64,000 nucleotides of DNA. It comes from Tetraselmis striata. Taxonomy: Eukaryota; Chlorophyta; Chlorodendrophyceae; Chlorodendrales; Chlorodendraceae. Below, piece after piece: positions 10,612 through 51,832 of this stretch; the first letter of the stretch is position 1; each line of letters begins with the position of its first letter. The notes under the pieces are model-generated. The model saw only the letters and a list, made by a program, of their open reading frames with translations, was not told the DNA's origin and made no database searches. The position numbers were made by a program, and so were the translations under genes. The DNA is taken from positions 62,001-126,000 of the forward strand of contig VCJN01000448.1 of NCBI GenBank assembly GCA_006384855.1, in the 5' to 3' direction.

Positions 10612-10888
10612 GAAAAAGTAAAGTTTGCCCTAGGTCATCCGCCGAAGCCCCCCCCCCCCCCCATCACTTGACCTCTTGCTTGCGCCAACTGCAGTCGTAG
10701 GTTTCGCGTAGCCATTAGACCGTTGCCTCATTCGAACCCCGAAGGACTAAATAAATTCATCAACCAGGTAAACCTAGGAGGCCAGGACACGGGCCCGGAC
10801 GATATTGCTCTGACATGATAGCCGGGAATCAATCCGGGGACCTCCTGAGTAGGAGACCACCGCTCTACCCAGCGGGCAGACAACTACG
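10612..10888 (-). mobile_element. tRNA-derived SINE, copy 1
   Basis: Read on the minus strand, a tRNA-like head (CGCTGGGTAGAGCGG as A box, GGATTGATTCC as a mutated B box) is followed by a body shared with three other loci in the window: the TTCGGGGTTCGAATGAGGCA block, the block around GACTGCAGTTGGCGCA, and a 3' end GCAAACTTTACT. A G-run interrupts the body. The family is defined by comparison with 17787-18030, 27685-27905 and 51564-51832. Confidence 0.85.
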
Positions 10889-14153: not shown

Positions 14154-16153
14154 GAGATGCTGGCAGGTGGGGTGGCGGGCGGCATCGCCAAGACGAGCGT
14201 GGCCCCCTTGGAGCGCACAAAGATTATGTTCCAGGTCCCCCCCCCCCCCCCTTGCCCGCCGTGCAACTTGTCACGCCACCCATGCCACTTTGTTGTGATA
14301 CGGGTTTCGATTCCCTGCTACCTTTGGGCGGCTGCAGACCAACCAAGTTCCGCCAGGGCATGGCGTGTGGCGAACCCTTAAGGATATCTCTGCCCGCGAA
14401 GGCTGGCGAGGGATGCTCAAGTGCCCCCCCCCCCCCCCCCCCCCCTTCCTCTCCCATTGCCCCACCACACCCACCCACCTGCCATCAGAGGTGGAGGCAG
14501 CTGGTCGGGTTGGAACGGCTGCACCGGCTGGCAGGGTGAGCTGAATGTGGGGTAACACGTGGCGCGCAGGGGAAACACCGCCACCGTGGCGCGCATCATC
14601 CCCTACTCGGCCATCCACTTCTGGGCGTACGAGCACTTCCGGCGGATACTGGTCAGCGAGGCTCAAACTCGCGGTGAGCGCCGTGTCTCTGCGTCTATGG
14701 AGAGGAGAACAAAGGACGCCGCCCCCCCCTACATGGACACAGAGGCACGGCGCTCACTCCCCCCCCCCCCCCCCCCCCTTTGCCCCAACCCCATCCACAG
14801 GCGTCAAGCCCGGCCCATGGCTTGACCTGCTGGCTGGCTCCTCCGCCGGCGCGGTGGCGGTGGTGTTGACCTACCCCCTAGACCTAGTGAGAACACGCAT
14901 GGCATGGCAAGTGGACCTGCCAGCGGCAACCGCGGGCAACTCCGGTCCGGCCACCAAAGTGGGGAGAAACATGGCGGCGGCGCCGTTGCGGCCGGGTGGC
15001 GCGGGGCGCCAGGATTGCCAGGGCGGCGCCGGCCCGCCCGGGGCGAGCACGCAGAGCGCTGCCAAGCTTAGTGCTTCCACGGGCGGGGGCGGGGGAAGCC
15101 GGGCGAGGCTGAGCATGGCCGGCACGGCGAAGCGCGTGGTGGCTCGGGAGGGGCTGCTCGGGCTGTACAGCGGCATGGGGCCCGCGTTGATGGGAATCCT
15201 GCCCTACTCCGGCATCAAGTTTTACGTATATCAGAGCCTGAAGCAGCACTACAGGTGAGCCCCCTCTCCCCGGGCGGCAACGTGCCTTGGGCAACAGCGG
15301 GCAACAGGGGAGAGAGGAGGATGGGGCGGCAGGGCGTTGAGTATATGTGTGCACCCATAGTGTTATGTTGCATCGCCGTACCGGTATGGGTCAAAAGATA
15401 CATCATTCAGTTGAGCGTGTGTGTGTGGTGGTGGTGGTGGGGGGGGGGGCATATACATCTTGACATTAGAACATTCAGCCTCCCTCTGTCTATATGTCGT
15501 GGATGTTATGACGCCTCTGTTTCCATGTCTCACTCCATGTTGTATGTGCCTATTAGCGTACCGCACATCCATATCCCAATGTGAAGTTGGGACCCGGAAA
15601 CAGTAGCTCTTCCGCACGCGCGGAGGTTTGTGTGTGTGTCTGTGTCCTTCGGGCGGATAGCAACGCGTGACGTGCATATGCACCCGGCCAGCTATCTCAT
15701 TTGTCCAGCATGCACCGAGGGGACTTGCGCGGGCATGTTGCACTGCGCCCCTTAAGCGTCCCGCCCATGTCTGTACGCCGCAGGCACTTGGCAGTGGTCC
15801 GCGGCGACGGCGCGCCCGCCCGCCTGCCGTTGCCGCTGATGCTGGCGTTTGGGGCGGCGGCGGGCCTGGTGGGGCAAACGCTCACGTACCCGCTGGACAT
15901 CGCGCGGCGGCGCATGCAGGTGCAAGGCGCGCAGGCGCTGGAGGCCGAGGCCGCGGGTGTGCCCCACGCCGCGCGGCCCACGGTGTACCGCAGCACGCTG
16001 GCGTGCCTGGCGGGCGTTGCGCGGCAAGGCGGCGTGCGGGCGCTGTTCTACGGGCTGCAGATCAACTACATCAAGGTGGTGCCGTCCACCGCGCTGGGCT
16101 TCATGATCTACGACTACATGAAGTTCTGGCTGCTGCTTCCAAACCACTTGTGA
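14154..16153 (+). CDS. Mitochondrial carrier family protein (SLC25), 5' end missing
   Basis: An inner-membrane metabolite carrier, by sequence closest in style to the coenzyme A/adenine nucleotide branch (SLC25A42/SLC25A16/Leu5-like); the substrate is inferred. Exons are 14154-14234, 14338-14420, 14570-14673, 14801-15254 and 15784-16153, each bounded by AG/GT with matching phase and giving 363 residues. All three carrier repeats show their signature: APLERTKIMFQ (repeat 1), YPLDLVRTRM (repeat 2) and YPLDIARRRMQ (repeat 3), with the GxxxG-type helices around them (LAGGVAGGIAKT, LLAGSSAGAVAVVL). The second matrix loop holds a Gly/Ala/Ser-rich insertion of about 60 residues, unusual for the family. 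The first visible exon starts just before helix 1, so a short N-terminal exon is missing. Introns 1 and 2 have poly(C) starting 2-3 bases after the donor GT. Confidence 0.93.
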
Positions 16154-17189: not shown

Positions 17190-20100
17190 CTAGCACACGA
17201 TCAGCTTGCTCTTGTAGTGACACACCTGCCCGCGGTGCAACGTCCGCAGCCCCACCGGGGCCTCCATCACGTCGATCACCAGGTGGATGCGCGGCACCGC
17301 GCTCCCGTTCTGCAGCCACACGGGTGCACACCAAGCGCGGCAGGGGTCATCAGTGCCGCCTAGACGAGGCTTTCCATTTGGGGGCGCCATCACAGCCGGT
17401 CTGAAGAGGTCTCGAGCAGGGCTATGGGAGGCATCCCCGCTGCATGTGCTCATCACGGGTGCCTCCCGAGCGCCCCAGGGGCAGCCCCAACACGCCCCAT
17501 GGCCGCGCGGTTCAGAGGGCCCTCAAGATGTTTGGCATCGACACCACACGACAGCCAATTGTGACCGATCGCATAGCATGGCGCCAAGCGCTGAAGCACG
17601 GCAACTTCATGAAAGGCAAGCCGAAGAAGCGCAGACGCAACCCTGACGAAACATATATGTACATGAGCTAGCAGCAGAAGGCGATATCAGGAAATTACCA
17701 AAAAAATGGAAAATCAGAAAGGTCCTCTAAAGCGAAGCCCAACGTCTCCTGCGTACTGTGGCCCCATTCCTTGTGTACTGTACATTCCTTGTCTGCTCGG
17801 TCGAGCGGTGGTCTCCTACTCAGGAGGTCCAAGGTTCGATTCCTGGCTCTGTCATTTCAGGGCAATGTCGGCCGGGCCCGTGTCCCGGGCTTACCCGATT
17901 GATGCATTGGTATCCCTTCGGGGTTCGAATGACGCAACGGTCTAATGGCTATGCCAGACCTACGGCTGCAGGTGTCGCAACCCGTTCTGTGCTGGGGCGG
18001 CTTCAGCCGATGACCCGGGGCTGACTCTACATTTAGTGCACGTGAGTGCCTAGTTCCGATACGATGATACTCTCCGCGTGCCAGGCTGGGTGCACCAGCA
18101 GGGAGGGGCACCGGGCGCCTCTCATCGCCCTGCTCGGCACCCGAGCGGACTGGCCGTGGCGTGTCGTGAGCGAGAGGCGAAGTCACGGAAATATAATGCC
18201 GGGCGCATACGTACGGGACAAAAGTGATCAAAAGTGAACACAAGATTCGCAAAAGCGATCACGCGTGCTGCTGTTGTGCCCCCATTCATTCCGCGTGTGT
18301 TCGGCGCGCTTTCCCACCTGACTATTTTCTGTCCCAGTTTTGCCCGATTGCCAGTGCTTGAGATCGGGGGGAGGGCCGCACCTTCAGATAGTGCATGCGC
18401 CGGTTGTTGAGCTCAAACACGTCGCCCTCACCGTACAGCAGCTGCGAGCACTCCGCCTGCTCGGCGCCGGCGCTGTCGCGCCCGCAAATGTGGAACTCGG
18501 CGCCTGGGGCCACGGAGAGCGGCACGTGGATGCGGTGGCCGCGCCGCACCCAGGCCCCGTCATCCTACGCGTGGGCATGCCGGCCACACTCAGCGCGAAT
18601 GCGAGAGTAGAGTAATGAGGTGCTTCTGCCGGTAGTTGCTCTTACATTCGCATGTGGGGCACAAATACACGTGGCGCTGATGCGGTAATGAGAGCACTGC
18701 ACATGGAAAAACTTGCCCAACCTAAACGGGGACGAAACTATGGCGGGGCGGTGACAAAATCTCCTGTGGGTAGCATGCCACCCCAACCCGACGCGTGTAT
18801 TGATCGTTGTTTCTCAGGTTCGACGTAATACACATAGGCACATACACGTGATATACATAATAAATAGAGACAGAGTGTCGTCAGGATCATTGAATATGCA
18901 TGTATAAATGTACGTACCGCATAATGACATGACATGGCACTGCCAGCAGCCCAGCCGGCAGGCGGACACGATCAGATGGCGTGGGAAAGAGGGAGGCAAT
19001 GGGGCACGCCGCGCGGCGCACCTGGTGGTGGTTGATGACCGTCCCGGGCTTCATGCGGGCCAGCTGCAGCCGGATCACGTTGCCCTTGTCCGCGCCAAGC
19101 ACGCTGTCCAGGATGCGGTCCAGGTGCTCAGCGTAGCGCCTGCGTGCGGAGCACAAAGGAACCGTCAGACTCTCCAGCGACAGAGCCGCTCGTGCTGCAT
19201 TGGCGCCGCGTGGGGGCAAAAAGGGGGGGGGGGGGGGAGTACTCGTAAAAGGGGAAGCGGTAGGCCGTCACGTCGCCAGTGAGCTCGCCGTCGCTGAATA
19301 TCAGGTGGATGGACTCCACGCCTGGCTTGACCATCTCCATGTTGCCGGCGCGGCCCTCCAGGTAGGCGTTGTCGCGCTGTCAGCAGCAGCCGCCCGGAGT
19401 GACCAGCCAAGCAAGTCAGGCGTTTACATACAGGAGCTGTGTTCGCCTGAATACAAAGACACACATATAGTATATATATTCTATATATAAACAAATGTAT
19501 ATAATTGTATATATGTGCACGCAAACACAGTATACATAATCTATCTCCTCTGCTCTGCGCAATAAGCATGCCCACCGGTCTGGCCAACTAGGGACCATGT
19601 GGGGCGCGGGGCTGGTGCAAGGGCGGCAAGAGCGGGCCGATGTTGTAGCAACACAGGTAAAGAGTACCACCACTCCCGATGCCGCGGCACCGCATTCCGG
19701 CATCTTCACACAATCCCGCGGCATCGATCATAACGCGCCGCTCGGCCGGCTCGATGCTCGTTTCCAACCATTGCACAGAGGGATCCCCAGGTTCCAGCTA
19801 AACACCAACCTGATGAAGAAGCCCCATGCCTAATCCACAACACACTCGCCCTTCTCGCCTCAGCGCTGGCTCTACGGCAACGTGCTCAGAAACGACACTC
19901 CACCCCCACTCGATCAATTTTGCAACAGCAAAAGCCCCTCTCGGCAAACCCCTCTGACGGCACTACATGAAGGAGGGGAATTGATGAGGGTCAAGCCTCC
20001 GAGGACATGCCACGACGGCGACAAAATGACGCCGAGAAAGGACAAGGATCCGCGGGCACAGATCCAGCGCCCTGCGGTTGCCGCACCCGCTGCACCTCCG

Positions 20101-23100
20101 CGCCCCAGATGCTGTCCGGCTCCGACAGCACCGCCCGCTTGAACGCCCCCACGTCCATGTGCAGCAGCGGCAGGAAGCTGGCGGCGCGCTTGAGGCCCGT
20201 GACCTTTCGCGCCAGCATCATGAACGGCCGGCCGCTCGCCCACTTGCCGCCCACAAACTGCGCCGCGTCTGTCATCTGCGCAACGGCTGCGGACGTCAGA
20301 AAGCGGACAGCGGAGACCCACAAGACCGATGTCTTCTTAGTGGGGAATGGTCGGCGGGCACGGCAGTGGCGCACCGTGTTCCAGTCGATGTCGGACCCCC
20401 TGAGCGCCTTTGCCTCCGCGACCTGGAAGGCTATGTCGCCCAAGGCAGCCGGGGGAGGGGCGTCCTGCGCCGCCGCCCGCTCCGCCGCATGCGCCGCCCA
20501 CACCTCCTTAGCGGTGCGCCCGTCGTCGCTGAGGCGCAGGTAGTTGGCGTGGTAGCCGCTGCCGACCGCCAGGTGCGGCGCGCTGATCGCGTTGAGCAGG
20601 CCGTGCGTGGGAAGCTGCGGCCGCATGACGGCGGGGGGAAGGGGGGGGGGGGGGGCGGGGGGGGGGGGGGGGGGGGGGGGGGGAAGGGGTACGAGTGAGC
20701 CACGGGGTGACGCCCCATTGCGACCTACCAGCAGATAGTAGACATTGGCTCTGCTGCATCCAGCACTGGGGGCATCCCATCTGGGCCGGGTGCCAAGCTT
20801 TTCCCTGCCAGGGGATCTTCGTACGAGTACGTGTTCCCGCATGGCAGCCCTCAATAAACCCGATCCAGCCTGTTCACTCTCTTAAAGGCACTACGGTTCA
20901 ATCCCGTTCACTTTGCTCACACTCGCCCATGGGCGATCTGCAATTAATTGGAACAAATACAGATCAACGATGTGAGCTAGATAGGTTACCGGCGCGGGTC
21001 AGCAACCTCGGCTGCCTGGGGCGGTAACCAGGTCTTCTACCGCGATTTGGAAGTGCTGCGATCTCGCCGGACTGTCTGGCAGGTCATTGGGTTGCTGGGG
21101 TGGGCACAGAGGTGGGGCGGGGAGAAGCGGTCACCTCGAGGCACCACAGCTGCTCCCGTCGCACAAGGTCCACCGCGCACAGCTCCGAGTTGAGGCTGGG
21201 GTCGTTGCGCTGCGAGCGCTCCCGCGGCTGCGACACGCCGAGGTATGCGACGTCGTCCGTTACGGCCATGCCCTTCAGGAAGGGCTTGGGATCCGCGGGC
21301 GCCTGTGGCAATGCACCAGCCATATAGAGAGGAGGGGGGGGGGGGGGGGGGGGGGCTTCCTTAGGTGCACCACAGCGACCTACCCCCCCCCCTCCCCGAT
21401 CCCCTCGAACGCTACCGTCCTGAAATTTGATTGGCATGGATTGCAATTATATTGGGTTCATCATTGGGCGGCAGACCTATAAGGGATCAATATGGTACCC
21501 GGTGTTACATGGGTTCTGACGCACCTACCCCTATGAGAACCTGCAATGCAAGTATGCCTCAACCTGGGGTTGCATGCCAACAACGTTGGAACATTTACTA
21601 CAATCCCGCTATACCTCTGCCCTGTGTAAAGGCCCTCTGACAGGTTTAACAGCTGCTCATTCACAGTGTCGTTACTACCGCACTAGGAGCCGTAACATCG
21701 ATGCAATCATATCGCGAATACTAGAATGAGATTAGCTGAGCAGTTCACATGTGATTCAATTGAGTCATTTGTCTGAGGCCGCTGACTACAATCGGCTCTT
21801 AACGAAATGCACCAGCTGTGGTGAATGCACGGAGTCCGCACCACGACGAGCGAGGCAGAGCGCAGCCAGCCAGCGCCGCCAGGCCCACACAGCGCACCTG
21901 CCACAGCTCCAGCCGCTCCTCCGACTCTGGGTCCACGGCCAGCAGGGCGGCGCGCTGGCTGTCCAGCACCAGCAGCATGCCGCGCCAGTGCACCAGCCCG
22001 TGTGACATGCCGCCCACATCGCTGGCCAAGCCGGCGATGGCGGCTTCCCCGCCGGAGAAGCTCACGTCGGCCATGCGGCTCTTTCCCTGCCGTCACCCCG
22101 GGCAGCCACGCGCTCAACATCGGTCCGCAGAGAAACCCGGGTAGCACTGGCGTTCTTTCATTTCCAGTGGCATCAACATGGCTGTTTTTGGTTATATAGC
22201 AGCTTTGGTGTGTGTGTGGGGGGGGGGGGGGGGGGGGGGGGGGGTACCTTGTTGTGCAGCATCGCCCACAGATGGCCGGGCCGCGTGATGGACGGCGACA
22301 ACGTGTTGACGTGCTGGCGCTCCGTGAACAGCGGGTGCCGCGCCTTGAGCCGCATCGAGGGGAATCCCAGCTCCAGCAGCTCGCCGGTGCCAGTGCTGGC
22401 CGCGTACACCGTGCTCCCCACGCGGATCTGCACGGGAGGGGCGGCAGAGTCAGAGCTAGGGGAGTGTGCCGGCGCCGATGGCACCAGCCGCTGGCAGGGA
22501 ATATAGCAGATCGGATACATGGCAGCAGAGGATGGGAAGCGTTTCTCGGGGTGGCTCACTGCGTCGTGCGTGAAGCGCGAGTCGATGCGCACCCGCTTCA
22601 GCTCCCTCCCTGCGTCAATACGATGACAATGAGACGAGGCAGTACAGGCTACGGAGCAAAGGCAACAGGCAGCGCCGCCTGTATCGTCAGGCCCCCCTTC
22701 CCTGGCGTGCGCTTCTCCTGCAAAGCCCACCTGTGTTGATGTCCAGCTGCAGCAGCCACTCCGCGCTGTCCTTCGGGTGCCAGTTGTGCGGGCGCGACAC
22801 CACCCACAGCGTGGTTGGCGCGCCGTCGACGTCCACCTCATGCCCGGGGAAGTGACCATAGTATATTCCCTACCGAGGGGGGCGCCGCAGTGAGGCTCAG
22901 AGTCGCGTCGTGGGGCGCGGTGGCGTCGGGTGGGGTCGGGTCTGAGCGAGTCGGGGAATCATCTGCTTCTCTCGGGGGGGGGGGGGGGGGGGGGGCGAGG
23001 GGGGCCGGCGGCGGATGGGCACACCTCCCCCTCGTGCAGCACCTGCGCCTCGTGCGTGCGGTAGTTGAACCACAGCAGCCGGGCGTGGGTGGCGATGAGC

Positions 23101-23518
23101 AGTCGGTGCGGACGGGAGCCCGTCTCACGGGGAAAGGTGGGCCAGCGCCCCGGGGCGGCCGGCGCCTCGCGGTGCAGCGTGTCACCGCTGCGGTCCGCCG
23201 CCTCCACGTCCTCCAGCTGCTCCTGGAGCAGCACGCACACCGCGCCTAGGCACAGCAGCACCGCCAATGTCCCCGCCAGCTCCAGCCCGCGTCGCCCCTG
23301 CCGACGCCGCCGCTTGCCTGTGGACAGAGAAATCCACTGGGAAGTGAGCGCTGCAGCAAGGATGGCTTCCTGGCTGTGAGCGTAGCGTGTGCGCCGAAGG
23401 GGCGAAACCGTTTCGAAGTTGAATCGAAAGTACAAGTAGCGAGGACGAGCGCACCGGCCGGGTCGTCCACCGGCGGCCCGCCAACGGTCACTCGCACCAC
23501 CTCCGCCATGTACGACAT
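17190..23518 (-). CDS. Type II membrane protein: beta-propeller-like region fused to aspartyl/asparaginyl beta-hydroxylase domain
   Basis: Exons in coding order are 23518-23455, 23317-23025, 22869-22731, 22609-22560, 22427-22248, 22086-21898, 21302-21135, 20614-20375 and 20275-20096 (501 codons, all phases close), an unresolved exon near 19797-19588, then 19376-19243, 19139-19022, 18564-18382 and 17309-17190. After a basic stretch (KRRRRQGRRG), one hydrophobic helix (LAGTLAVLLCLGAVCVLL, about residues 32-50) suggests a signal anchor with a lumenal C-terminal part. Residues about 90-400 contain propeller-like strands (LLIATHARLLWFNYRTHEAQ, GGMSHGLVHWRGMLLVLDSQ, FLKGMAVTDDVAYLGVSQPR) resembling TIGR03032/DUF4915-type proteins. 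The last ~185 residues match PF05118: INHHQDDG (metal HxD), RGHRIHVPLSVAPG, NNRRMHYLK (second His) and VPRIHLVIDV (2OG Arg). All catalytic residues appear intact. The protein is about 730 residues long. The start at 23518 is inferred. Confidence 0.82.
17444..17671 (+). pseudogene. Possible LINE C-terminal fragment inside an intron
   Basis: A plus-strand frame inside the last intron of the minus-strand hydroxylase gene. ALKMFGIDTTRQPIVTDRIA followed by WRQALKHG resembles the C-terminal tail after the zinc module of some LINE polymerases (the 'DRxxWR' block). It ends at a stop at 17669-17671, about 110 bp before a SINE in the same orientation. Short and unproven. Confidence 0.35.
17787..18030 (+). 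mobile_element. tRNA-derived SINE, copy 2
   Basis: Head with A box (CTCGGTCGAGCGG) and a good B box (GGTTCGATTCC), followed by the family body (TTCGGGGTTCGAATGACGCA, then CTACGGCTGCAGGTGTCGCA) and the end GGCTTCAGCCGATGACCCGG. It lies antisense in the last intron (17310-18381) of the hydroxylase gene. Confidence 0.87.
20641..20683. repeat. 43-base near-pure poly(G) run in an intron
   Basis: G run on the plus strand broken once by C at 20657. On the coding (minus) strand it is a poly(C) tract 26 bases upstream of the acceptor of exon 8 and may serve as its polypyrimidine tract. Confidence 0.9.
22218..22244. repeat. 27-base poly(G) run at a splice donor
   Basis: On the coding strand the intron starts GTA and goes straight into this C run, so the homopolymer abuts the 5' splice site of exon 5 (ending 22248). 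Confidence 0.9.
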
Positions 23519-24274: not shown

Positions 24275-27080
24275 ATGCTATACCCCTCAACGACCCGCGC
24301 CATGGCGCCCTGCTGCGATGCGAGCCCTCGTACCCACCACAGGCTCCCTCCCACAGGCGCCACAGTAAAGTGGGCCACGTCCCGTTCCCTCCGCCCGGCA
24401 GCCCGCGTCCGACGGGTGCCGGTCCAGCGGGGACCCGCTTCGCGGCCGGCAGTGGCCCGCGCGGCGGAGCAGGTGCCAGCGCTGTCGCCAGTGGCTGGGG
24501 CAGCCGCGTGGCTGGCCGCCGACCTCCGTGACGCAGCGGACCAGTGGCTGCATGTGCTGAACGCGGCGGAGGTGGCGGAGGTGCGTACCTGGATTGTGCA
24601 TTTGGGTCCAGCTGCGCGGGGGAGGGGGGTGTTCCTTGACATCAGGAATTATAATGCTGCCGTACGACATGTGTTAGTTGGTCGCTATTATACTGGGCCT
24701 ACGCTGAAGAGCGCATCGTCGCTATGTGACTGCGCATACCTGGTGCACCTATCTCATCCACGTGCCCACAGCCGTGCCGCTATGCCAGCACCAGCAGAGT
24801 TGACAGCGGCTCAGCACTCGGACCAGGCCCCCATCATCGCTCAGCGGCACGCCCGCCCCGTCTTGACCACCCCAAGGAAGGGTTTCACCAAGACTTACCC
24901 CTGTCCCCTGCCGCAGGTTCTGGCAGCCATGGAGAGCGTGGACGCGCAGGGCCTAGAGACGGAGCAGGTCACGCAGGCCACCTTCCCGCTCCCCACGCTG
25001 GGTCCCAAGCTGCTGCGCATGCAGGAGAAAGTTGTCAACGGCCGCGGGTTTGTGCTGCTGCGTGGGCTACCAGTTGAGGACATCAGCGTCAGGTGACGCC
25101 TCTGCGCTCCTGGCCCGCCTGCGAATCGCTCTGCCTCTGCTGGCATGCTCCAATCGGGAGCTAAGCATGCGCATGATGTGATGCTGGCATTCGCAGGGCG
25201 GCGGCCACCGCGTATTGGGGCATCGGCCGCTACTTTGGCGAGCCCGTGCCTCAGAACAAATCGGTGACGAGGGGCGCCAGGGCAGCGTTGCACAGCCAAA
25301 GATGCATGTGACTTCTATGGGGGGGGGAGGTGCTGACAGGGACGGTTGTGCGACTTGACAGGGGCACCTGCTGGGCCACGTGTGCGACTTGGGCCTGGAC
25401 GCCAGCAACCCCAACCACCGCGTGTACGCCACCAGTGCTGCGCAGCCGTTCCACACCGACTCTGCTGACATCGTTGGCCTGCTCTGCCTGCGGGAGGCCA
25501 TGGAGGGCGGTACGCCGGGCCTTCTCCTAGTCTTATCATCCACTTCCCCCCACCCCCACACCACCTTTGACCACCCCCACGCCATGCGGAAGGGGCTGCA
25601 GCAATGAGAGGGGAAGGGGGGGGGGGGGGAGGGGGGCAGAGGGAGGTGGCGCATCTCCTATGCTGAGCGCCACCCCGCTCCGCTGCAGGCCTGAGCAGCT
25701 GGTGCAGCTCGGTGTCCATATACAACGAGATGCTGCGGCGGCGGCCCGACCTTGTGCGCGAGCTGATGGGCGACTGGTACGTGGACCGCAAGGGCGAGAT
25801 CCCGCCTGGCAAGGGCCCCTACTACCGCATGCCCGTCTTCCACATGCATGAGGGCGTCCTCAGCGTCATCTACGCTCGCGGCTTCATCCAGGTGCGGACT
25901 GAGGCCGTCTGCGCTGTATTGCATGCCATATGTATACCGCTTGTCAGCCACTGGGGGGCATGCACTTGCTAGCGGCTGACTGCCGCCGTGGTTACAGGCG
26001 GCACAACGGCACGGCGACGTCCCGCGCTTAACGCCACTACAGGCAAGAGCCTACGTAATGGAGGCGAGAGGGCGGTAGAGGTGATGGCGCGTACGTGGGA
26101 TGGCGCATTGATGACCCGGCGCCTTAGCTGGGTGCGCTGCTTTTACAGGTGGAGGCGCTGGACATGGTGGATGAGCTGGCTGCTAGTGACCTGCTACGCC
26201 TCGACCATCAGCTGCAGCCAGGTGCGCCGGCACAGCGCGGATAGGAGCGAGTCAGCCGGCCATGTGTATCAGGCTTGTAGTGAGGGAAGATGGGGGCAGG
26301 GGGAGGCCGCTTGAGACCATCATGGGAACTCCGCCCAATCCAATGCACAAGCGTGTTCCGAACCCCCCTCCCCCCCTCCCCGTCCCCACCTCTCCTCCTT
26401 CACCCCGCACCCTCTTCCCTTCCGGCGGCTACCTCCTTTCTGACCTTGACAGGGGACATCCAGATCCTGCACAACCACCAGCTGCTCCATGCGCGCTCCG
26501 CCTTCAAGGACTGGCCAGATGGCGGCCCCAAGCGCCACCTGCTCCGCCTGTGGCTAAGCCCAAAGAATGGCAGGTGGGCAGGCGGCCGGCTGGCCATGCA
26601 CTGATTGCCTGAGCTCCGAGACTTGTTGGAACTCTTATCCACTCATCGGGGTCTCATCAGACGTAAATGCTTGAGTCAACAGGGGATTACTATCCCCGCA
26701 CCCACACACAAACAAACCTGACAGGGGCTACGGTAGCGGACTCATAACATGAGCAGCTATAGGAGCCTCAAATTGGGGTTGAAGTCTACAAGAACACTCG
26801 CTACTATAGTCCGTAGTAATTCAGCAATCATTATATGTACATTTGACCTCTGACAGGTTGGGCAGGTTCGTCTTTGCAGTGTCATAACTACAGCACCGGC
26901 ACATGTGGTGCTGTACCTTCCTAGGCAGCGCCAACTCACACAGGATTGCTGGTCTGTCGCTGTCGCAGGCCGCTGCCACCCGTCTTTGAGGAGCGGTACA
27001 GCAGTGTGGAGCCTGGGAACCGCGGCGGCATCCGCTGCCCCGGGGTGCAGCCGTTCATCACACTCAAGCCCTCCACCTGA
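24275..27080 (+). CDS. TfdA/TauD-family Fe(II)/2-oxoglutarate dioxygenase
   Basis: A non-heme iron oxygenase expected to hydroxylate a small molecule using 2-oxoglutarate and O2; the substrate is unknown. Exons are 24275-24580, 24917-25092, 25197-25263, 25362-25509, 25689-25891, 25998-26042, 26149-26221, 26453-26573 and 26969-27080 (416 residues, all phases close). Intron 6 starts with GC (CTACAG/GCAAGA) instead of GT. Conserved parts are GRGFVLLRGLP, YWGIGRYFGEPVPQN, the metal motif PFHTDSADIVGLL (His214, Asp216), IYNEMLRRRPDLV, the second metal His in HNHQLLHARSAF (His352) and the 2OG-binding region KRHLLRLWLSP. The catalytic set looks complete. Closest in style to the fungal and algal TauD/TfdA-like proteins. 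The start is the first ATG of an open frame; residues 1-60 are basic and Arg/Ala-rich and could be an organelle presequence. TGTAA at 27590 is a candidate poly(A) signal. Confidence 0.92.
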
Positions 27081-51563: not shown

Positions 51564-51832
51564 CAAGGTACTACATCCCTTGTCCGCTCGGTAGAGCGGT
51601 CGTCTCATATGCGAGAGACTCGGGTTCGATTCCTGGCCGATGTATTTCGGCAATAATATCGGCCCGGCGTGTCCCGGGTTTATCCGGTTGATGCATTAGC
51701 CCTTCGGGGTTTGAATGAGGCAATGGTCTATGGGCTATGCCAGACCTACGACTGCAGTTGGCGCACGAGGTCTAGTAGTGCCGGGGCGGCTTCGGCCGAT
51801 GTCCCGGGGCAAACTTTACTTTACTTTTACTA
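51564..51832 (+). mobile_element. tRNA-derived SINE, copy 4, with target-site duplication
   Basis: The best-preserved copy: A box (CTCGGTAGAGCGG), B box (GGTTCGATTCC), body and 3' end (GGGGCAAACTTTACTTTACT). It is flanked by a perfect 10-bp direct repeat, GCGAAAGCTA, at 51554-51563 and 51833-51842, which is the mark of LINE-type integration. Confidence 0.92.

Follow-up and report, generated by a model that had tools for sequence, protein, structure and literature searches.

The window analysed here is a stretch of 64,000 nucleotides from the green alga Tetraselmis striata (contig VCJN01000448.1, positions 62,001 to 126,000, forward strand). On its minus strand, from 23518 to 17190, lies a gene for a predicted protein with an N-terminal membrane anchor, a region of a putative beta-propeller family and a C-terminal oxygenase domain of the PF05118 family. 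The gene has 13 exons that form a single frame of 688 residues, from the ATG at 23518 to the stop ending at 17190. All introns (12/12) are GT-AG and the exon phases close throughout, in agreement with the at least thirteen phase-closing exons of the initial annotation. The features are as follows, with the basis of each in brackets.

23455 to 23518, minus strand: exon 1, start ATG and predicted cytosolic N-terminus, residues 1-21 (gene model, two-copy comparison)
23025 to 23317, minus strand: exon 2, KRRRRQGRR flank, single predicted transmembrane (TM) anchor with peak hydropathy at about residues 33-53, linker and first propeller strands, residues 22-119 (gene model, hydropathy, alignment)
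22731 to 22869, minus strand: exon 3, propeller, residues 120-165 (gene model, alignment with three planctomycete proteins)
22560 to 22609, minus strand: exon 4, propeller, residues 166-182 (gene model, same alignment)
22248 to 22427, minus strand: exon 5, propeller, residues 183-242 (gene model, same alignment)
21898 to 22086, minus strand: exon 6, propeller, the stretch that matches DUF4915 and TIGR03032, residues 243-305 (Pfam, NCBIfam, hhalign and hidden Markov model, HMM)
21135 to 21302, minus strand: exon 7, propeller, residues 306-361 (gene model, same alignment)
20375 to 20614, minus strand: exon 8, end of the propeller (to about residue 375) and linker (to residue 441) (alignment to the planctomycete proteins)
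20276 to 20374, minus strand: intron 8, 99 nt, the sole point at which the propeller and oxygenase parts meet (two-copy comparison)
20087 to 20275, minus strand: exon 9, linker followed by the N-terminal portion of the oxygenase, residues 442-504 (oxygenase HMM)
19243 to 19376, minus strand: exon 10, oxygenase domain, residues 505-548 (gene model, oxygenase HMM)
19022 to 19139, minus strand: exon 11, oxygenase, with the predicted metal ligand His587 at 19025-19027 (gene model, alignment with seven bacterial domains)
18382 to 18564, minus strand: exon 12, predicted metal ligand Asp589 (18562-18564), His601 (18526-18528) and distal His646 (18391-18393) (same bacterial alignment)
17190 to 17309, minus strand: exon 13, Arg656 predicted to bind 2-oxoglutarate (2OG) (17289-17291), C-terminus and stop (same bacterial alignment)

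Gene model and second genomic copy

The composition of the exons is that of coding sequence, with GC of.71,.46 and.92 at the three codon positions against.587 in the introns. The third-position value, together with spliceosomal introns, is consistent with a green alga. The initial annotation had supposed a missing exon at 19.3-20.3 kb. No exon is missing there, because exon 9 (20275-20087) and exon 10 (19376-19243) join in phase, and the alignment to an HMM built only from bacterial oxygenase domains (residues 478-677) continues across their junction. This region needs no further exon.

Only one hydrophobic segment is present, with a hydropathy of 2.35 and nothing above 1.6 elsewhere, and it is preceded by the basic stretch KRRRRQGRR. 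The signal anchor described initially was thus confirmed. The protein is predicted to have a type II layout, with one N-terminal TM segment and a basic flank.

The genome assembly (224 Mb in 2,903 contigs, with the window on contig C354) was searched with the protein, and all 25 matches fall either in the window or on contig C2820. Over the 9.9 kb compared, the copy on C2820 runs collinear with the window at 93-95%, and for this reason we read it as an allele or a recent segmental duplicate, between which the sequence does not tell. Exon lengths are identical in 13/13 cases, and indels are found in 0/13 exons against 11/12 introns, with the GT and AG of the introns kept. In terms of coding sequence, dS is 0.039 and dN 0.0068 (dN/dS 0.18), so there is purifying selection between the two copies.

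Intron 12 includes a dispersed repeat of about 250 bp (~17.78-18.02 kb), also found in the window at 10614-10878 and 51572-51822. The C2820 version of the intron 12 stretch matches these other two sites at 69% and 74%. By eye, the repeat has a tRNA B-box-like motif and is perhaps a short interspersed nuclear element; scans of the window with ARAGORN and Rfam gave no RNA genes.

Oxygenase domain

In the Pfam scan of the spliced protein, PF05118 was found with E 4.1e-5 and 23.9 bits, over the cut-off of 22.6. An HMM from seven bacterial domains covers residues 478-677 and gives 62.7 bits for the whole sequence, against 3.9 for the best of 200 shuffles. H587, D589, H601, H646 and R656 are invariant in 8/8 rows of the alignment of the algal domain with these seven. 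The domain therefore bears out the first description, a PF05118 domain with HxD, distal His and Arg, and holds a complete HxD...H iron triad plus the 2OG-binding Arg. From homology, it is predicted to be a catalytically active Fe(II)/2OG oxygenase of the PF05118 clan.

A profile of the eight domains was compared with the PDB. The best match is L-proline cis-4-hydroxylase (4p7w, E 2.1e-14), followed by 7v4f (E 4.4e-6), 1e5r, termed "proline oxidase" (E 2.9e-5), and the aspartyl/asparaginyl beta-hydroxylase AspH (5apa, E 0.17). This ranking places the group and not the alga alone, because 7/8 rows are bacterial and the algal domain by itself finds nothing; the whole algal protein also finds nothing in the PDB at E ≤ 10. 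L-proline cis-4-hydroxylase is a small enzyme that acts on free proline. To our knowledge, neither this enzyme nor that of 7v4f has an anchor or a propeller. They are the closest solved relatives of the eight-row profile, and differ from the algal protein in being small enzymes on small molecules. The structure 7v4f comes from work on a caprazamycin beta-hydroxylase (PMC9814697).

The alga has at least two other PF05118 genes, two of which were read by eye from exon translations. The gene on C2605 has TPR-like segments and a His-Cys-Gly motif, resembling classical AspH, and the one on C1066 has the His-Thr-Asp form.

In the window, a neighbouring gene at 24.3-26.6 kb on the plus strand, divergent from the one described here, includes exons matching PF02668, the TauD/TfdA-type 2OG dioxygenases (E 3.4e-6 at 26284-26604 and E 8.3e-5 at 25667-25972). 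Two different 2OG-oxygenase genes thus stand head to head. On the other side, at 15671-16153 on the plus strand, lies a mitochondrial carrier exon (PF00153, E 1.5e-19), probably the last one by its stop.

Propeller region and its relatives

The propeller region has only weak matches to known families. DUF4915 was found with E 9.3e-4 and 19 bits, below its cut-off of 35, and TIGR03032 with E 3.9e-4 and 19.5 bits, far below its cut-off of 251.5. With hhalign, TIGR03032 gave 95.4% over 95 columns for the algal protein, and 95.9% over 82 columns for a profile of the alga with three planctomycete proteins (the propeller profile hereafter). An HMM from 79 TIGR03032 open reading frames (ORFs) scores the algal protein at 16.4 bits, and 200 shuffles reach 0.4 at most. 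The "TIGR03032/DUF4915 style" given to this propeller initially thus holds as a remote kinship and fails as a family assignment, with both scores below the cut-offs. By sequence, the region belongs to a distinct family, only remotely related to TIGR03032/DUF4915. A search of the algal genome with TIGR03032 gave no match at E ≤ 0.001.

The nearest relatives found come from planctomycetes. Residues 88-688 were searched against 392 genomes in the phylum of Adhaeretor, a planctomycete, at E ≤ 0.001, and 7 matched. In three, the match extends over the entire propeller with 36-41% identity (E 1.2e-37 to 4.9e-45); in a fourth (G708) it is a partial propeller match within a TIGR03032 gene, and the remaining three match in the oxygenase only. 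The three propeller proteins (L149, L150 and L151) are stand-alone intronless ORFs of 295-323 residues, all from one planctomycete order. Their alignments with the alga run from algal residues 74-93 to 372-373 (E 1.2e-47 to 4e-40), and the alignment of all four has 35-39% identity end to end. Algal introns 2-7 sit at clean positions in it, between residues common to the intronless proteins (six junctions). Furthermore, an HMM from the three planctomycete rows alone scores the alga at 185.5 bits, where the highest of 200 shuffles has 2.7.

These proteins are of the same family as the algal propeller from end to end, and differ from it in that they have neither a fused nor a neighbouring hydroxylase. 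DNA polymerase I adjoins them in 3/3 cases (2/3 by Pfam, the third by eye) and a TPR protein kinase in 2/3 (by Pfam). DNA polymerase I stands beside the propeller gene in all three genomes for no obvious reason.

The family is sparsely distributed. With the propeller profile it was found in 3/9 genomes of that planctomycete order (E ≤ 1e-10), with weak matches in 2/297 genomes in the phylum of G002 (E 2e-12 and 5e-12). None was found among 292 genomes in the phylum of G007 (E ≤ 1e-6) or among 249 in the phylum of G005 (E ≤ 1e-10), which shares genomes with the phylum of G003 and is not an independent phylum. The algal sequence matched 11 of 398 genomes in the phylum of G003, all in the oxygenase part and none in the propeller part. 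As a single sequence, it had no confirmed relative in the genome collection. Neither the algal protein nor the propeller profile had a relative on viral contigs, and phages searched with the propeller gave two chance-level matches only (E 3 and 6). In the case of plasmids, 10 records matched the algal protein, none over 80% of its length, and none matched the planctomycete propeller. One plasmid match, H2 (E 0.3), was rejected as likely chance, as its ORFs show no propeller or oxygenase gene.

The propeller fold of the algal region is predicted from homology. The three planctomycete rows, 3/4 members of the alignment, match PQQ_2/BamB (best E 3.8e-5), and two of them scanned singly fall below the family cut-off. 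In the PDB, the propeller profile had only chance-level heat-shock matches, and TIGR03032 only one match of E 0.15, to a quinoprotein dehydrogenase.

In bacteria, TIGR03032 itself has at least 582 relatives among at least 585 matched stretches. We kept the best 80 stretches, which make up 79 loci (L015-L093). Among the 79 TIGR03032 ORFs of this best set, at E ≤ 1e-4, 76 have DUF4915, 19 TPR, 7 Glyco_transf_9, 5 Sulfotransfer_3 and 3 PF05118. With a fourth ORF elsewhere in L039, four ORFs in the 79 best loci carry PF05118, a sulfotransferase and DUF4915 in one chain (L072, L057, L074 and L039). As in the alga, related propeller and oxygenase domains stand in one chain, but their order is reversed, with the oxygenase N-terminal, the propeller C-terminal and the sulfotransferase between, and the propellers are only remotely related to the algal one. 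On a Diaphorobacter plasmid, found as a match to the algal oxygenase, a PF05118-sulfotransferase gene extends into the start of a TIGR03032 gene, and the pair adjoins a PMP-repeat, IPTL-CTERM protein.

A beta-helix, PMP-repeat or Calx-beta protein lies at most 0.9 kb from 5/5 of these hydroxylase-sulfotransferase-propeller sets (four fused and Diaphorobacter). With the five neighbour proteins as queries, a beta-helix-like ORF was found in 31/79 of the best TIGR03032 loci, and in 23 of these it stands no more than 250 bases from the TIGR03032 ORF; four loci among the 31 (L057, L072, L074 and L039) supplied queries and 27 are independent of them. Such an ORF was found in 0/18 comparison loci, a small set that is not lineage-matched (231 kb against 993 kb) and in which one locus (L153) itself holds a TIGR03032 gene. 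Speaking against a universal link, 0/8 TIGR03032 loci on viral contigs have a beta-helix-like ORF, and none of the eight has a hydroxylase by local HMM. Plasmids gave 14 other TIGR03032 matches, and of 6 inspected, 5 stand beside a large surface-type protein (choice-of-anchor Q, FG-GAP or autotransporter). Fusions of TIGR03032 to TPR-glycosyltransferase regions occur in Synechocystis, Nostoc and Acaryochloris. The beta-helix-like ORFs in 31/79 loci, against 0/18 and 0/8, suggest that many TIGR03032 members serve surface-protein modification.

A sulfotransferase is fused or adjacent in 7/15 inspected loci of the algal oxygenase search (L005, L007, L008, L074, L133-L141, L152 and L154), a count that leaves out six further plasmid records, L130, L131 and L148, and that may lack distant sulfotransferases escaping the local HMM. 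In the algal genome, PF13469 gave 11 sulfotransferase matches, none on contig C354.

The bacterial sets support a general pairing of both kinds of domain. They are not direct ancestors of the algal fusion, because the planctomycete propellers nearest to that of the alga are not beside a hydroxylase, and the domain order is also reversed.

Some of these loci have further oxygenases. At 4184-4846 in L039 lies a 2OG-FeII_Oxy_5 ORF into which the end of the hydroxylase-sulfotransferase-propeller ORF extends, and in L065 a TPR protein with a 2OG-FeII_Oxy_5 domain is beside a TPR-PF05118 ORF. Lastly, the metagenome bins of L072 and L093 are titled Klebsiella pneumoniae and Bifidobacterium breve, labels that look doubtful.

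Proposed role and alternatives

We consider it fairly probable that the protein is a type II residue hydroxylase of the endoplasmic reticulum (ER) or Golgi, with the propeller as part of its substrate-binding surface. The short basic cytosolic tail and the signal anchor would hold it in the ER or Golgi membrane. The positive-inside rule relates a basic flank to the cytosolic side, and because this flank precedes the single TM segment we infer that the remainder is lumenal. On that side would stand the beta-propeller, then the C-terminal Fe(II)/2OG oxygenase with an intact 2-His-1-carboxylate site. The oxygenase would most likely act on a protein in transit through the secretory pathway, hydroxylating a side chain for which Pro, Asn and Asp are the candidates. 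The propeller would form part of the substrate-binding surface, like the TPR domain in AspH, and on this analogy substrate recruitment by the propeller is plausible. The protein substrate and the role of the propeller are, like the location, what we infer; fold and activity are predicted from relatives.

Several observations weigh against this proposal. The algal oxygenase domain alone matches no PDB chain at E ≤ 10, and the closest solved relatives act on small molecules (free proline and a nucleoside-antibiotic intermediate), for which reason a protein substrate is proposed only conditionally. Among propeller families, DUF4915 alone is matched by the algal row. Blade repeats are not visible by self-comparison, where 167/300 shuffles reach the observed self-match; of the ~300 residues of propeller-like repeats in the initial annotation, it is the propeller-family sequence (residues 88-375) that is confirmed. 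The nearest propeller relatives adjoin polA and not a hydroxylase, and PF05118 was matched in only 1/3 of their genomes, on another contig, with no match in the other two. Finally, no homologue was found that bridges intron 8, the only join without a bridging relative, and exon 9 begins with an ATG (Met442).

The protein could be a lumen-held small-molecule hydroxylase, acting on a free amino acid or on a lipid or glycan head group, with the propeller as a scaffold. L-proline cis-4-hydroxylase and the caprazamycin beta-hydroxylase (7v4f), as closest solved relatives of the profile, point in this direction; the membrane anchor, the propeller and the repeat proteins close to all five bacterial sets make it unlikely.

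A diverged AspH, in which a propeller would have taken the place of the TPR region and which would act on Asp or Asn of EGF-like domains, is improbable. In favour are PF05118 over its cut-off and a similar type II layout. Human AspH is ER-anchored, with a lumenal C-terminal oxygenase preceded by another domain (PMC6817910), and the algal protein is predicted to share this layout. According to PMC13168262, the iron ligands of human AspH are H679 and H725 only, that is two His, 2OG is bound by S668, H690 and R736, and the adjacent TPR domain contributes to substrate binding. By spacing, we take H601 and R656 as putative counterparts of H690 and R736, but against the two-His site the algal domain has the full HxD...H with Asp589. 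Where AspH has TPR before the oxygenase, the algal protein has a propeller: Pfam at E ≤ 10 lists PF05118 and DUF4915 only, with no TPR, and the initial view that the domain partner differs from the TPR found in AspH was correct. Furthermore, the profile fits L-proline cis-4-hydroxylase far better than AspH (2e-14 against 0.17), and the genome separately holds the TPR-like gene of His-x-Gly form on C2605, to whose locus tblastn of the algal oxygenase domain finds no match at E ≤ 10. The initial assignment as an Asp/Asn beta-hydroxylase in the animal sense is therefore not retained.

Lastly, two genes, one for the propeller (exons 1-8) and one for a hydroxylase from Met442 in exon 9, are highly improbable: the ATG of exon 9, the absence of a bridging homologue among our searches and the unspliced exon 8 frame of the C2820 copy, which stops after 29 codons, would fit them, but the 99-110 nt between exons 8 and 9 leave little room for a 3' end, a promoter and a 5' untranslated region, the composition is coding-like up to both edges (third-position GC.91 and.92) and, without splicing, the frame of the window copy continues open into exon 9. 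Intron 8 differs in length between the copies (99 nt in the window, 110 nt on C2820) and is therefore a real intron. The single-gene fusion first proposed is very likely, one gene being far more likely than two.

A wider reading joins the alga and the bacteria. DUF4915-superfamily propellers might be substrate-docking modules of a system that modifies exported proteins, a possibility that we regard as tentative and, taken as a whole, rather unlikely. In bacteria, the propellers would bring a hydroxylase and a sulfotransferase, or TPR-glycosyltransferases, to beta-helix surface proteins; a residue would be hydroxylated and the new hydroxyl then sulfated. In the alga, a membrane-anchored eukaryotic form would act in the secretory pathway and hydroxylate residues that are sulfated or glycosylated afterwards, for instance in cell-wall glycoproteins. 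More generally, the fusion and its bacterial counterparts beside large repeat proteins suggest an unstudied modification of exported proteins.

In the literature searched, with most subscription journals outside it, TIGR03032 and DUF4915 are not mentioned, and any function for them would be new to it. No propeller-PF05118 hydroxylase or hydroxylase-sulfotransferase protein is described in it either. The same architecture may be present, unremarked, in annotated algal genomes.

The finding would extend the PF05118 oxygenases by a propeller-coupled branch, in a eukaryote whose genome has an apparent classical TPR-AspH as well. The uncharacterised TIGR03032/DUF4915 family would gain a testable context, with modifying enzymes in the same chain (hydroxylase, sulfotransferase or TPR-glycosyltransferase) and, at many loci, large beta-helix-like neighbours.

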